Shown: positions 5,537 to 10,375 of the stretch, in pieces | Numbering within the stretch: the stretch's first letter is position 1 | How the letters are laid out: every line of letters begins with the position of its first letter | From: Clostridia bacterium | Lineage (GTDB): Bacteria; Bacillota; Clostridia; Christensenellales; Borkfalkiaceae | Direction: 5' to 3' | Assembly (NCBI GenBank): GCA_029054485.1 | Contig: JAIDFD010000235.1 | Coordinates: 1 to 19,566, forward strand | Length of the DNA: 19,566 nt | The notes under the pieces: generated by a model | Databases searched by the model: none | The model's input: only the letters and a program-made list of their open reading frames with translations | What the model was told of the DNA's origin: nothing | Made by a program: the position numbers and the translations under genes

Positions 5537-5575
5537 TCGGGTGAAATAATAATCTCGTAATTTATCGGGTGAAAT
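5537..5575. repeat. Two 11-bp direct repeats upstream of the TTG-start membrane protein
   Basis: TCGGGTGAAAT occurs at 5537-5547 and 5565-5575, 28 bp apart, just before the ribosome site at 5582. The spacing is close to three helical turns, so they could be a regulator's binding sites. I see no convincing -35/-10 pair to anchor this. Confidence 0.4.
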
Positions 5576-5592
5576 TACGGCAAGGAGTAATT

Positions 5593-6141
5593 TTGACTTT
5601 TATACAGATTATAGACCTTTTCACCTTTTACGGCGTGGATATAGCAATTCTTGCCGCCGCCACTGCAATAATTACGCAGGTACTCAAAATAACGATACTG
5701 AAAAAGGTGCAGAAAAAAATTCTGACTTTTCTTCCGTTCACTTTGGGAACCTTGCTGTATGCAGTATATGCGGGCGTGCGCAATATGAGTGCGGTCTACG
5801 TTATTCAGCAGTACGCCGAAATCATTGAGCGCGGTCTTGCTATTGGCTCGCTTGCAACCTTATTGTACGTTTTGTACGAGCAGTTTATAAGGCAGAAGAG
5901 CGGACTTTCGGAGACCGAGCAGGTAGTTTCCGCGCTCATTCAGGGCTTTGTTCCCGACGATGGTGTTGAAGAGGTTGCAAAAAAAGTTACCGACGCAATC
6001 TTAAAAGACGTAACGGGCAACGGCGCTAAATTATGCGAAGAGATTATCGCGGACAACGCCGCCGAGGGCGTAACCGAACGCGACGTGCAGTTGCTTTCAA
6101 AACTGATAATCGAAACGCTTGCGCATATGACCGTGCAGTAA
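5593..6141 (+). CDS. Hypothetical membrane protein, TTG start
   Basis: I do not recognise this protein. The open frame extends back to a GTG at 5569, but the TTG at 5593 has AAGGAG at 5582-5587, five bases upstream, and is the better start; this gives 182 residues. Residues about 14-34, 44-62 and 82-97 are hydrophobic helices, with a basic LKKVQKK segment between the first two. The C-terminal half (about 100-182) is soluble and predicted helical, with two similar blocks, VVSALIQGFVPDDGVEEVAKKV and LCEEIIADNAAEGVTERDVQL. The topology resembles small phage-holin-like or scaffold membrane proteins, but I see no family signature and no phage genes nearby. It stands alone between opposing units and ends at a strong hairpin. 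Confidence 0.75.
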   Translation: MTFIQIIDLFTFYGVDIAILAAATAIITQVLKITILKKVQKKILTFLPFTLGTLLYAVYAGVRNMSAVYVIQQYAEIIERGLAIGSLATLLYVLYEQFIRQKSGLSETEQVVSALIQGFVPDDGVEEVAKKVTDAILKDVTGNGAKLCEEIIADNAAEGVTERDVQLLSKLIIETLAHMTVQ

Positions 6142-6190: not shown

Positions 6191-6209
6191 TGTGCGGGTG
6201 CAGCCGCCG

Positions 6210-6347
6210 TCAGTCTTGATCGATTGCTACTGTAATAGTAACGGTGATTTTTCCGTTTTCGTCAACCTCCTGTTTTAAAGTCAGGCTGTTTTCTTCGGTA
6301 AGTTCCAAGATACGTTCTAAAAGTGTGGTAACAATTTTATTGCGCAA
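6210..6347 (-). CDS. Small 45-residue protein with TTG start
   Basis: On the minus strand AGGAG lies 6 nt before a TTG at 6347. The frame gives 45 residues beginning RNKIVTTLLERILELTEEN and ending TITVAIDQD: a basic amphipathic helix followed by an alternating beta-like tail. I do not recognise a family. The frame stays open upstream to a GTG at 6491 with its own weaker AAGGA site, but that extension runs through a long hairpin and an intrinsic terminator, so the short form is preferred. Expression would need read-through of the terminator at 6361-6395. The first codons (6323-6334) are complementary to the 3' arm of the upstream hairpin, suggesting control by RNA structure. Confidence 0.55.
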   Translation of the reverse strand: MRNKIVTTLLERILELTEENSLTLKQEVDENGKITVTITVAIDQD

Positions 6348-6360
6348 ATTTTTTCTCCTG

Positions 6361-6395
6361 AAATAAAAAAGTGTGTTCCCAAACCGAGAACACAC
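6361..6395 (-). terminator. Intrinsic terminator inside the leader of the small ORF
   Basis: On the minus strand the stem GTGTGTTC (6395-6388) pairs with GAACACAC (6378-6371) and is followed by TTTTTTATTT. It stands 7 bases before the AGGAG of the TTG-start ORF, the usual place for a transcription attenuator. Confidence 0.75.
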
Positions 6396-6523
6396 CTGCA
6401 CCTGTACCCCCGATTTGTTACCACACAAATTGAACGTATAATAAAAAAATACCGCGCAAAAGAGGTACAAAATGCCATTCACATTTTGCACGGTTTTTTC
6501 CTTTTTTATTCAATTTGTGTGGT
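6361..6523 (-). ncRNA. Candidate long-hairpin small RNA or attenuator leader
   Basis: A transcript starting at about 6523 from the promoter at 6558-6530 opens directly with a 14-bp perfect closing stem (minus 6524-6511 with 6432-6419, TACCACACAAATTG/CAATTTGTGTGGTA). Further in lie an A-tract/U-tract stem and a CCGTGCAAAA/TTTTGCGCGG stem, around an apical loop. The hairpin spans about 106 nt. It is followed by about 23 unpaired nt and an intrinsic terminator, giving an RNA of about 160 nt. A single rod with internal loops recalls 6S-like RNAs, but I cannot match a known family. It could be a stand-alone sRNA or the leader of the 45-residue ORF. Confidence 0.55.
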
Positions 6524-6529
6524 ACGACC

Positions 6530-6558
6530 AGTATAACATTAAACCTTCTTATTTTCAA
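6530..6558 (-). promoter_or_regulatory. Strong sigma-A promoter for the hairpin RNA
   Basis: On the minus strand TTGAAA (6558-6553), a 17-nt spacer and TATACT (6535-6530). The predicted start at about 6523 coincides with the first paired base of the long hairpin. It lies just after the terminator of the ger operon, so this is an independent transcription unit. Confidence 0.7.
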
Positions 6559-6612: not shown

Positions 6613-7893
6613 TTAGTTTACGCTTTGGATATTAATTTCGTATTTAACTTTCATTCTGGTCAGTAAATCACCGTTGAAAGCATCGAAGTATTTTGTATTG
6701 AACTTATACAAGAGGTTGCGCGCGCCCAAAAGGTCGCAGTCCGTTTCGGCGCAGGTTTTCACAAGGTCTGAAAAGCGTGTTTCAATTTCCTTTTTCGCGC
6801 CCTCCAAAACGTTTTGCTTTACTATATCATCGAATGGAACGTCCTTGGGGTCGAGAGTCATTCGCTTGCCCTGAATCTGCGCCTTTGCCTTGAAGCTTAT
6901 AGTAAGCTCGGGCACGCCCTTATTGACTTTCAGCTTTACATCACCCTTGGCGTTTTTCATACCCAAGGTATAGTGAACGTCGTCCACGTTGAAAGGAAGT
7001 ACCGCAAGGCGGATATTGTTTTTTATTATATCCAGCGCAAAGGACTGGGTTTCGTCTAAAATTCCCGCAAATTTGCCGTCCGAAAAGAACGCCGTTCTTC
7101 TTGCGGTAAACTCCACCTGTTCTTCTCCGCCGCCCGTGTCGCTGCTTTGCGAGGACGAGCCCCCGCCTTGCGAGCCGCCCGAACTTCCACCGGAGCTTCC
7201 ACCCGAACCGCCCTCCGAGCCGCCCGAACTTCCGCCCGAACCCTCGGCGGGGTCGCCGCCTATGCTGTCGCCTCCGCCGCTTTCGGAAGTGCCGGGCTTA
7301 TTCGCCTCGATATAGGGCATATAGCAAGCCGCGCTCTTTGAGAAGTTTGTTTCGGCTATATCTTTAAGGTTTGCGTAAGAAACGTTTGCCGACTTTTCCA
7401 GCTCGTCCGAAAGAACCTGCAAAATCGCGGATGAAGTTTCGGGGTTGACGGTCGCGGGCATCGCCAGCATATCCCCCGCCTTGCCCTGACACATAGCGAC
7501 TAGCGCGGTCAGCTCGGAATAGTTGCGCCTGTAAAAGCAGCTCAATATTTTAAACAGCTCGTCCTTCTGGCACTCTTCGCCGATTAAAATCAGTTTGCAG
7601 AATAAAAGTTTGGGGTAAAAGCCCGTCTTTGAGTTGATTTCGTTCAGCGCGTCCGCCACGGTAAGTCCGCTGCCCTGAACCTGCGTGTACTGGATATTGT
7701 TTCCGCTTTCCGACGGCTGCGGTACCGCAAGCTGTGCGGTAACCTGCACCTCGCCGTCCTGCGTGTCCACGCCGACCGCAACTATTATAGAGGTTTTGCG
7801 TATATCTGTAAGTCCGAAGTCGTTTGTAAAAAACAGCGCCAAAAGGGCAATCATTATCGCCCAGTAAATTATTACCGAAAGTTTTTTAATCAT
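6613..7893 (-). CDS. gerAC: Ger(x)C-family spore germination protein (GerAC)
   Basis: This is the third subunit of a GerA-type germinant receptor in the spore inner membrane. The open frame reaches 7968, but the start at 7893 (MIKKLSV) has AGGAGG five bases upstream and overlaps the gerAB stop as ATGA, giving 426 residues. After a hydrophobic segment (about 7-23) comes the family opening DIRKTSIIVAVGVDTQDGEV, then the Ger(x)C N-terminal domain (YTQVQGSGLTVADALNEI, KLLFCKLILIGEE) and the C-terminal domain ending in KYFDAFNGDLLTRMKVKYE. Two oddities stand out. There is no lipobox cysteine where family members have a GCWD-like site, so the protein seems anchored by an uncleaved helix. A Gly/Ser-rich linker (about 201-258) separates the two domains. 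Last gene of the operon. Confidence 0.92.
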   Translation of the reverse strand: MIKKLSVIIYWAIMIALLALFFTNDFGLTDIRKTSIIVAVGVDTQDGEVQVTAQLAVPQPSESGNNIQYTQVQGSGLTVADALNEINSKTGFYPKLLFCKLILIGEECQKDELFKILSCFYRRNYSELTALVAMCQGKAGDMLAMPATVNPETSSAILQVLSDELEKSANVSYANLKDIAETNFSKSAACYMPYIEANKPGTSESGGGDSIGGDPAEGSGGSSGGSEGGSGGSSGGSSGGSQGGGSSSQSSDTGGGEEQVEFTARRTAFFSDGKFAGILDETQSFALDIIKNNIRLAVLPFNVDDVHYTLGMKNAKGDVKLKVNKGVPELTISFKAKAQIQGKRMTLDPKDVPFDDIVKQNVLEGAKKEIETRFSDLVKTCAETDCDLLGARNLLYKFNTKYFDAFNGDLLTRMKVKYEINIQSVN

Positions 7894-8951
7894 TTTGCCC
7901 TCCTCTTCATAGCCCAGCTCAAAAGAGGGATAACCGTTGCAAACAGCAGGAACACAATCCACATCCACTTGCCGAAAACGATACTGAGCGTGTTGTATTT
8001 GCTGTCAAAAACAATGATAAACACAAGAAGCAAGCCGTTGATTATTACGGAAAGCGCGTTTCTGTTTTTCCAGCCCGTACATTTGACAAAGCAGTGAACT
8101 GCAAGCTGGATATTGAGAACGAGCGCGAAAAGCATAGCGATTTCAAGGATATACAGCGCGATTAAATCTATTCTGCCAAGCATATCTATCGCGGGGAAGA
8201 AAAGCGAAATTTTCGAAACGGCAAACTGCCTCGACACGGAGATTTCGCCGTAAATTCCGTAGAACACGAAGAGGAAAAACATAACTATAAGTCCCCCTCC
8301 GATATACGAAGCCGTGATTTTTGCCGAGTCCCACTTTTTGTACTTGAAGTGTCCCATGAACATCAAAAGCCAGCAGGGCTCGAAAAAGAGATAGGTCGTA
8401 CCAAGCGAGCTTCCGAAAAGGGTCTTTACGGGCGTCTTTAAAAGGGGCAGAAAATTATCCCAGTTGACCTCCCACAGCGACATAATAAATATGAAAATCA
8501 GTGAAAGCACAAAAATCGGCAGACAAATGTCCGCGCTTCTTCCTATATTTGTAAATTTTTTGCTTGCCGCGTAAACCGAAAAGAAAAAGAAGGGCAAAAA
8601 GACCAAAAGCGAAGGCACGGTATCGTAAAATATCGTGTGAACGTACAGCTTTTGCTCGGACAGCGGCATAAGCGTTCCCAGAATGAAGAACAGCCCGAAC
8701 AAGCCGTAAACAATTCTCGCGCAAATATTGCCGAGGGTACCCTCAATAAGCTGGAACAGAGTTTTATCGGTGCGCGAGCAAAGATAGCTGACCGCCCACA
8801 CCACCACCGACTGAACGGCAAAGCTGATAAAGGCGGGAAACCACAAGTCCCGCCCGCACTGCGAGCTTAAAAGAGTGGGATATATGAGAATTTTCGAAAC
8901 CACCGTATAGGCAAGCATTATAAAACATATCTGTCTTGTACAAATCTTCAT
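7890..8951 (-). CDS. gerAB: GerAB-family spore germination permease
   Basis: The 353-residue polytopic protein has about ten hydrophobic helices and matches the GerAB/APC-superfamily subunit that binds the germinant. The N-terminal ICFIMLAYTVVSKILIYPTLL segment carries the family's early helix. A large central loop with EVNWDNFLPLLKTPVK corresponds to the conserved NWxNxLP-like stretch, and EPCWLLMFMGHFK follows. The protein ends in a basic KRRAK tail whose codons supply the AGGAGG ribosome site for gerAC. Its start overlaps gerAA by 4 bases and its stop overlaps gerAC by 4, indicating a tightly coupled operon expressed in the forespore in related organisms. Length is typical (about 350-370). 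Confidence 0.92.
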   Translation of the reverse strand: MKICTRQICFIMLAYTVVSKILIYPTLLSSQCGRDLWFPAFISFAVQSVVVWAVSYLCSRTDKTLFQLIEGTLGNICARIVYGLFGLFFILGTLMPLSEQKLYVHTIFYDTVPSLLVFLPFFFFSVYAASKKFTNIGRSADICLPIFVLSLIFIFIMSLWEVNWDNFLPLLKTPVKTLFGSSLGTTYLFFEPCWLLMFMGHFKYKKWDSAKITASYIGGGLIVMFFLFVFYGIYGEISVSRQFAVSKISLFFPAIDMLGRIDLIALYILEIAMLFALVLNIQLAVHCFVKCTGWKNRNALSVIINGLLLVFIIVFDSKYNTLSIVFGKWMWIVFLLFATVIPLLSWAMKRRAK

Positions 8952-10375
8952 TTTGCTCTGAACCTCACTTTGTCACGGGTTACGAACGATTGCGGCCGGT
9001 CGTTTAGCTTGTTCATATTGGCTTTTACCATACTATCGTACAAATCGCTCTTGACTATGGGTGCAAAGGGTGCGAGAAGAGGCGCGCCGTAAGACTGCTC
9101 GGTTACGAGATAACAGATTATAAACGCCGTAAACAGCACCACGCCGAAGGGTCCTATACTTCCCGAAACGATTAAAAGTATCCACCGCAAAGTCGAGGTC
9201 GTTTCAACCAAATCGGGCGTGGTATAAAGACAGATTGCCGAAAAGGCTATTATTATTATCGCGGGGGTTGAAATTATGCCCGCCTTGACCGCCGTGTCGC
9301 CCAGAACCAGCGCGCCCACTACCGACAGAGCCAGTCCGACGTACTTGGGCATTCGGATAGAAGCTTCGTTTAAAACTTCCAGAACGAACAGCGTCAAAAA
9401 CATCTCTACGCTTGGCGAGAGGGGCAGACTCGATATGGAGCTAGAAATTTTCAGCAATAACTGAAAGGGAATTAACTGAATTTTGAAAAGCTGCGCCGAG
9501 ATATACATTGCGGGCAAAAACATTCCCACAACCAATGACAGCACGCGCAGAATCCTTATTATGGTAGAACGGTACGAAACCGCGTAATAGTCCTCCGCCG
9601 CCTGCAAATCTTCCGTAAGTATATAGGGCACGGTCAGCGCGATAGGCGAGCCGTCCACGATAAGCCCCACCCTTCCCTCGCAGACCTTTGCGCAGAAAAT
9701 ATCGGGCTTTTCGCTTGTGCCGTTGCGCTTAAAAAGAGACTTGGGTCTTTTGGAAATGAACTGCGCGATATAGCTTGAATCGGGGATTAAATCGATTTCA
9801 TTGTTCGCAATCCGCTTTTCAACCTCTTCGGGCAATCCCTTTTGAACGACGTCGTCCAGATAAATCATTGCGACCGCGGTATCGGACCGCTGTCCCGATT
9901 TAAGCATTTTTATATGCAGTTTTTCGCTTTTGAGTCTTTTTCTTACAAGTCCCAGATTTACCTTAATATCCTCGGTAAAACCCTCGCGCGGGCCCTTTAA
10001 GGTTACCTGCGTGGGAGGCTCGGCAACCGAGCGCCCCGGGGGATTTTTAAGTCCTATAATAAAAAAGTCTTTTTCCCCGTCCACAAACAGCACCGCGTTT
10101 CCGTCCGAAACTTCCGCGATGCCGTCCTTTATTTTTTTGCAGTCCTTGACTTCGGGCGAGGCAAGCAACAGCTTCACTTCATCGAGTTTAGCGTCTTTTT
10201 TAACTTCTCTTAAAGGCTTGACCACAAGTTCGCCCAAAAGCTGTTTGTCGGCTATGCCGTCCGCGTAAATTGCGGCAAACTTCTTGCCCGCAGACGACTG
10301 AAACTCGAAAACGAGAATATCCTGCGAGGTTAAAACGTCCTTCACCCCTTTAATATTTTTTTCCAATGTTACCAT
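8948..10375 (-). CDS. gerAA: GerAA-family spore germination receptor subunit
   Basis: The 475 residues contain a soluble N-terminal domain of about 275 residues, including the family stretches IYLDDVVQKGLPEEVEKRI and EGRVGLIVDGSPIALTVPYIL, then a membrane domain of four to five helices. That domain holds the GerA hallmarks LNEASIRMPKYVG and TTPDLVETTSTLRW, and the C-terminus is soluble. In the germinant receptor this subunit forms the oligomeric channel with GerAB and GerAC. It is the first gene of the operon and overlaps gerAB by 4 bases. Upstream on the minus strand there is no good ribosome site and no clear CATNNTA sigma-G box. A GATAAT six bases before the ATG, with TTGAAT 19 nt further upstream, is a weak alternative. 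Confidence 0.93.
   Translation of the reverse strand: MVTLEKNIKGVKDVLTSQDILVFEFQSSAGKKFAAIYADGIADKQLLGELVVKPLREVKKDAKLDEVKLLLASPEVKDCKKIKDGIAEVSDGNAVLFVDGEKDFFIIGLKNPPGRSVAEPPTQVTLKGPREGFTEDIKVNLGLVRKRLKSEKLHIKMLKSGQRSDTAVAMIYLDDVVQKGLPEEVEKRIANNEIDLIPDSSYIAQFISKRPKSLFKRNGTSEKPDIFCAKVCEGRVGLIVDGSPIALTVPYILTEDLQAAEDYYAVSYRSTIIRILRVLSLVVGMFLPAMYISAQLFKIQLIPFQLLLKISSSISSLPLSPSVEMFLTLFVLEVLNEASIRMPKYVGLALSVVGALVLGDTAVKAGIISTPAIIIIAFSAICLYTTPDLVETTSTLRWILLIVSGSIGPFGVVLFTAFIICYLVTEQSYGAPLLAPFAPIVKSDLYDSMVKANMNKLNDRPQSFVTRDKVRFRAK

Follow-up and report, generated by a model that had tools for sequence, protein, structure and literature searches.

The locus at positions 6210–6558 of the window, as we call the whole stretch of 19,566 nt of Clostridia bacterium DNA that was analyzed, raises the question of whether it makes a 6S-like or other structured sRNA or a transcription attenuator for a tiny protein, the two layouts between which a first-pass annotation had left the choice. 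Our comparison of the window with its relatives points to the latter: the locus is very probably an independent gene headed by a cis-acting leader RNA that attenuates transcription and whose family matches nothing in Rfam 15.

The unit in the window

The unit is encoded on the minus strand. It is flanked by a spore-germination gene (6613-7968, Pfam Spore_GerAC) and by a convergent 190-aa ORF (5569-6141). The minus strand at 6613-10375 carries gerA-type spore germination genes (GerA, spore permease, GerAC), and a GerAC relative is present in 86 of the 93 genomes of the genus. We located the proposed minus-strand promoter at 6558-6530, with TTGAAA as -35 (6558-6553) and TATACT as -10 (6535-6530), separated by a 17-nt spacer that ends in TGT, so that TG precedes the -10. 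By itself this match is weak, because the 2.2-kb region holds seven promoter-like sites, compared to 2.2 (sd 1.7) in shuffled sequences. It gains credibility from the related leaders, in which a similar layout is kept at a fixed distance: a -10-like hexamer occurs in 97 of 98 leaders (n = 98 after omission of five doubtful rows and of L223, at a contig edge), 88 of which have it 5 or 6 nt upstream of the RNA; TG precedes the -10 in 86/98, and TTG is found at -35 spacing in 88/98. Control windows farther upstream showed no preferred -10 position. Judged from the promoter, the RNA would start at about position 6524, the first pair of the closing stem P1. Another candidate promoter, on the plus strand in the 3' arm (TTGTTA-16-TATAAT), was rejected, its -10 being absent in the genome G080.

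The predicted hairpin of about 106 nt was confirmed at 6524-6419. Its outer stem P1 (6524-6508 with 6435-6419) is indeed a long closing helix, but not the perfect 14-bp stem described before: it has 17 bp, one G-U included. For the 164-nt RNA, the calculated folding energy is -57.4 kcal/mol (z = -6.5), a value that none of 200 shuffled sequences attained. A long imperfect hairpin with internal bubbles might also suggest 6S RNA or another catalogued structured RNA, and the window hairpin does have sub-threshold matches to a microRNA precursor model (E 8.8e-4, 30.7 bits vs a gathering score of 211) and to RsaD (E 0.002, 30 vs 50). Nevertheless, all Rfam 15 families stayed below their gathering scores on the window leader, and 6S was absent among the 24 sub-threshold matches. 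Twenty related loci returned only a tRNA at gathering score, four of these 20 returned nothing at E ≤ 0.1, and 20 loci from the class-wide search returned, at E ≤ 0.05, only tRNAs and one sub-threshold match outside the leader. The 6S suggestion is thus not supported, and we consider identity with any catalogued RNA hardly credible. We also recognized no paper describing the leader RNA in the open-licence PMC literature.

A terminator had been expected downstream of the hairpin and is found at 6397-6369 (6397-6385 with 6381-6369, followed by a T-run). The region holds five terminator-like sites against 3.6 in shuffled sequences, and the one at 6397-6369 is supported by covariation in relatives. 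Past it, as annotated, come a ribosome-binding site AGGAG (6359-6355), kept in the genomes G080 and G010, and an ORF of 45 residues that runs from a TTG start at 6347 to a stop ending at 6210. A terminator-like stem at 6181-6156, kept in G080 and shorter and of other sequence in G010, closes the unit. The sequence right after the stop codon (GCGGCUGCACC, 6192-6209) is common to the three orthologs, and positions 6192-6203 are 83% complementary to the linker at 6396-6407.

Conservation of the 45-residue ORF had been named as a check, with a mixed outcome: the ORF is kept in the orthologs, but its family is tiny, being found in three of the 93 genus genomes (its own, G080 and G010) and comprising 11 database proteins, the window's own among them. 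Of the 13 differences that separate the window ORF from that of G080, 10 fall at third codon positions, as do 17 of the 27 that separate it from that of G010, so that the ORF looks to be under selection as a protein; codons 4-13 are identical at all positions in the three genomes. The predicted fold combines a single helix with a beta-hairpin (mean pLDDT 79, pTM 0.44). The protein has no Pfam or PHROG match, and neither a structure search (best E 0.5) nor a comparison of its sequence with those of solved structures (best E 0.78) gave anything usable.

In G080 the unit occupies the same genomic place as in the window genome. In G010 it has a different gene on each side and is split over two contigs, whose ends seem to abut at the promoter. 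A long gene for a secreted-looking protein lies there between gerAC and the unit (L218, contig 66), which suggests that this intergenic site takes up genes. At the 11 other genus loci listed (G010 not counted) the germination gene is followed by the 190-aa ORF (5), a trmB-like gene (4) or another gene (2) and never by the unit, which was thus apparently gained. Such a gain would fit a hairpin transposable element or MITE that carries a terminator by chance. Against this, the hairpin sequence has a single copy in its own genome, the only other match being its palindrome on the opposite strand, and not the many identical copies expected of an insertion element; the unit has no match in phage or plasmid records; and its relatives share the structure, but have other sequences and neighbours. 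We therefore rate a mobile element as very improbable. A DNA search in 61 genomes gave strong E-values only for the window's own genome and G010. Family members found no match in phages (two tested) or plasmids (one tested) either, and the 45-aa ORF family was not found in viral contigs. Among viral contigs with short leader-like patterns (110, 3 and 1), the second covariance model described below gave four weak matches (E 0.011-0.038), which we took as chance.

Exclusive pairings and their covariation

A stem search over the three ortholog leaders yielded two mutually exclusive sets of pairings. The set designated OFF consists of an inner stem P2 (6452-6493; 6493-6484 with 6461-6452), a pseudoknot between UGUACCUC (6462-6469) and GGGGUACA (6403-6410, in the linker after P1), and the terminator. 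The ON set consists of a longer apical stem P3 (6465-6491; 6491-6481 with 6475-6465) and a 15-bp antiterminator (6380-6417; linker 6417-6403 with 6394-6380). In the window copy P3 is exclusive with both P2 and the pseudoknot, and the antiterminator excludes both the terminator and the pseudoknot. Every cell of the two sets pairs in the three orthologs (139/139 and 127/127). Two pairs are compensatory: in G010, C-G has become U-A once within P2 and once within the pseudoknot. Among 500 column shuffles of the three leaders, one such stem occurred in 2% and two in none; the covariation of the three orthologs alone, however, was reached by 55/500 shuffles and is not decisive. Antiterminator and terminator have the same calculated energy in the window (-16.0 kcal/mol each), and the antiterminator is part of the minimum-energy fold at those lengths at which the 3' half of the terminator is incomplete.

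The covariance search in related Clostridia that the first-pass annotation had advised revealed a widespread family. A first covariance model (R1), built from the three ortholog leaders, detected the leader in 42 of the 93 genus genomes at E ≤ 1e-3, with full-length relatives down to E = 2e-28 outside the orthologs, and, in the order, found relatives in other families (42/396 genomes at E ≤ 0.1). A second model (R2), from 64 leaders, found the leader in 74 of 371 genomes and 49 of 212 genera of the class at E ≤ 1e-3. Because the window copy is among the leaders from which R2 was built, the score that R2 gives to the window follows from its construction. The only R2 hit in a draw of 388 genomes from the phylum was the window's own genome; this draw is not a clean outgroup, because it includes some other genomes of the class. 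The E-values of both models are rough, and the counts may run low, as at most seven candidates per genome were scored in the order search and at most eight in the class and phylum searches. The window genome itself holds several weaker matches, four of which (L326, L327, L332, L333) by eye retain a terminator and have an ORF downstream; L330 looks doubtful. Two of these, L326 and L327 (contigs 276 and 26), are divergent leaders 19 nt before two similar 105-aa ORFs that start with MKYxVENLL; their pseudoknot sequence is, by eye, unlike that of the rest of the family. Tandem leaders less than 80 nt apart were seen as well, at L351 (1291-1447 and 1501-1663, minus strand), at L355, on contig 2 of G739 and on contig 80 of G723.

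Collection with R1 over 100 of 105 loci gave 113 matches, nine of which were the palindrome on the opposite strand and were dropped; a few doubtful rows remain among the resulting 104 leaders. From these, 64 were chosen, chiefly for their score and the absence of long insertions, and aligned by MAFFT without structure (alignment A9). In the pseudoknot, 95.1% of 448 cells are paired and 25 are compensatory, compared to 7.1 in shuffles, although two further measures, both-side changes (83/500) and further pair types (282/500), are not above the shuffles. For the antiterminator, 88.4% of 810 cells pair, with 35 compensatory changes against 14.0. Ten P1 and nine terminator pairs together hold in 97.0% of 1189 cells (195 compensatory changes vs 51.9 shuffled), so that the paired arms, whose loss would have spoken against the hairpin, are in fact conserved. 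The models themselves include P1, the terminator and, in R2, P3, which biases the counts for these stems; R1, which collected the sequences, contains neither the pseudoknot nor the antiterminator. Watson-Crick pseudoknot stems of at least 6 bp are present in 49/64 leaders compared to 6.6 per set with shuffled linkers. The commonest pairing, GUAUCUC/GAGAUAC, accounts for 27/64, and its matched variants include GUAUCC/GGAUAC (9), GAGGUAC/GUACCUC (3) and GUGUUUC/GAAACAC (1). At least eight antiterminator pairs form in the folds of truncated RNAs in 62/64 leaders, against 22.8 with shuffled linkers, and the energy difference between antiterminator and terminator has a median of 0.35 kcal/mol (range -7.9 to 9.2).

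Leaders from the class search carry a longer pseudoknot whose sequence has changed on both sides. In 23 of 28 kept class loci, the pseudoknot pairing energy averages -15.2 kcal/mol with the locus's own linker, -9.6 with the linkers of other loci and -5.5 with shuffled ones, and the own linker is better than the mean of the others in 22/23. The inner stems are less uniform. About half of the cells in the P2 columns pair in the structure-blind alignment, which is not confirmation column by column, whereas 68 to 95% of ungapped cells, with many gaps, pair in a model-fitted one; since P2 varies in length between leaders, alignment error is as likely as absence. The window's P3 geometry is not general (down to 18/66 leaders); for the version shared by the family, the number of leaders (of about 64) in which a given position pairs ranges from 26 to 62, which is moderate support. 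For the three innermost P1 pairs, the numbers of pairing leaders in the 64-leader alignment are 25, 54 and 25. At least 90% conservation is found in 36 of the 206 columns of A9, most of them in strands that pair in one state; columns 24 and 25 do not.

Taken together, the pseudoknot, antiterminator, P1 and terminator show covariation in relatives, the corresponding pairings exist in the window, and antiterminator and terminator are of about equal energy. An attenuator for a tiny protein, one of the two original proposals, is thus supported by an exclusive antiterminator and terminator and a deciding pseudoknot in the window copy, all kept in relatives, and we regard the attenuator class of mechanism as well supported by these sequence comparisons.

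Client genes and their first codons

An ORF with a ribosome-binding site follows the leader in 90 of the 104 cases; by the rule used, 14/104 have none. According to a simple rule of our own, 56/90 of these client ORFs are lipoprotein-like, compared to 1/43 control ORFs drawn from upstream sequence, and a basic, hydrophobic N terminus is found in 77/90 clients and 12/43 controls. In a Pfam scan of ten clients, five were above the cut-off (Big_2 Ig-like, lipocalin-like, DUF6273 and twice LRR_5) and five had no match. We found no single pathway shared by the clients, which are lipoprotein-like plus other proteins, and as they lack a common metabolic theme they suggest no ligand. From these counts we infer a regulon of mainly secreted lipoproteins. 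Because the leader family is widespread and stands mostly before ORFs for lipoprotein-like or secreted proteins, the 45-aa ORF appears as one odd client. Its start, KIVTTLL, resembles the lipoprotein-gene starts KRFVTTLI and KRLVTTLL; hence it may have descended from such a gene, retaining the start and acquiring a different body.

The coding start of the window ORF (codons 5-13, 6334-6310) is complementary, at 21 of 25 nt, to the 3' arm of P1 and the first linker bases (6439-6415). This complementarity was reached by none of 2000 shuffled leaders and by five of 2000 synonymous recodings, and the duplex is calculated at -27.1 kcal/mol, compared to -23.0 for P1 itself. Near their start, 10/90 clients, counting the three window orthologs, carry a perfect 12-mer complement to this part of their own leader, compared to 1.6 for each permutation of partners; matches of 10 or 11 out of 12 are not in excess over such permutations. 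By eye, we found matched variants, e.g. GUGUGGUAAC with GUUACCACA, GUGUGGUGAC with GUCACCACA (L231 and L238; L227 has one mismatch nearby) and GCGUGGUAAC with GUUACCACGC (L249 and L250). In L241, GUGUGGUAGCAA faces UUGCUACCACAC, the same bases being read in another frame (KLLPHI, not FVTT). As the coding starts co-vary, and in L241 do so in another frame, they point to nucleic-acid pairing and not to a conserved peptide. Pairing of the first codons with the P1 3' arm is perhaps a second, translational layer in the subset of leaders that includes the window, and a leader-coding pairing with matched changes would constrain the first codons of a protein in an unusual way. Inversion of a segment between the 25-nt inverted repeats was considered as well, but pairing would better account for the matched changes in relatives.

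The strength of this duplex relative to P1, together with the leader's own promoter and terminator, also fits a different role, in which the terminated leader of about 160 nt is a trans-acting sRNA, with coding starts that can pair with the P1 3' arm as possible targets, and read-through is incidental. However, an ORF with a ribosome-binding site lies downstream in the 90 loci counted above, the antiterminator is kept though it would be useless to an sRNA, and where the complementarity has changed it fits the adjacent gene. We consider this role improbable and retain the cis-acting attenuator.

Proposed mechanism and known systems

In the attenuator we propose, transcription would begin at or near the first pair of P1, and four pairings would be linked in series, each one incompatible with the next: P3, pseudoknot, antiterminator and terminator. 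The pseudoknot would join the 3' strand of P3 to the linker after P1, and the antiterminator would join that same linker to the 5' half of the terminator. With P3 and the antiterminator formed (ON), polymerase would read into the gene; with the pseudoknot and the terminator (OFF), a leader of about 160 nt would be released. This presumes that the pairings form in the cell and that some factor stabilizes the pseudoknot, thereby turning the gene off. Most likely, this factor would be a bound small ligand, as in a riboswitch, although a protein, another RNA or folding kinetics could set the switch. A protein, such as a specialized antiterminator that binds RNA or the product of the client gene itself, would suit clients that are diverse and not metabolic, some of them small proteins; feedback by each product is, on the other hand, unlikely because clients differ between the loci listed, and the tandem arrangement of leaders is known from riboswitches. 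We regard a protein-set switch as a serious though unlikely alternative to the ligand.

In its full form, our reading is that of a new riboswitch class of Clostridia, present in about one fifth of the sampled class genomes and often in several copies, that would sense a ligand through a four-way strand exchange and set the expression of a lipoprotein and secreted-protein regulon, with, in some clients, first codons that co-evolved with the leader as a second layer; we hold this whole to be about evenly balanced between right and wrong. An uncatalogued regulatory RNA of this kind would offer a handle on the control of surface and secreted proteins in poorly known Clostridia, and the family would count as an orphan riboswitch candidate, open to a direct search for its ligand.

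Several known systems share parts of this design. Type III toxin-antitoxin systems (ToxIN and relatives) combine promoter, structured RNA, terminator and ORF in one unit, an order also seen here. Unlike them, the window unit has no tandem RNA repeats, its 45-aa ORF has no Pfam match that would indicate a ToxN-like endoribonuclease, and clients differ between loci. In T-box and leader-peptide attenuators, terminator and antiterminator share strands, as they do in the present leader; here, by contrast, the three orthologs have, by eye, no leader-peptide frame in common, and Rfam T-box models gave no match at gathering score. The c-di-GMP riboswitches of Clostridia occur in several copies per genome before genes for surface and secreted proteins and resemble our family in both respects, but no such Rfam family matched any leader tested. 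The proposed mechanism itself resembles that of transcriptional preQ1-I riboswitches, in which a pseudoknot between loop and 3' tail takes a strand from the antiterminator, so that the terminator forms. According to PMC7266159, a preQ1-I riboswitch can be as short as 34 nt, a single stem-loop plus tail. The leader described here, by contrast, has a long outer stem P1 that encloses inner stems, measures about 150 nt and stands before other clients.
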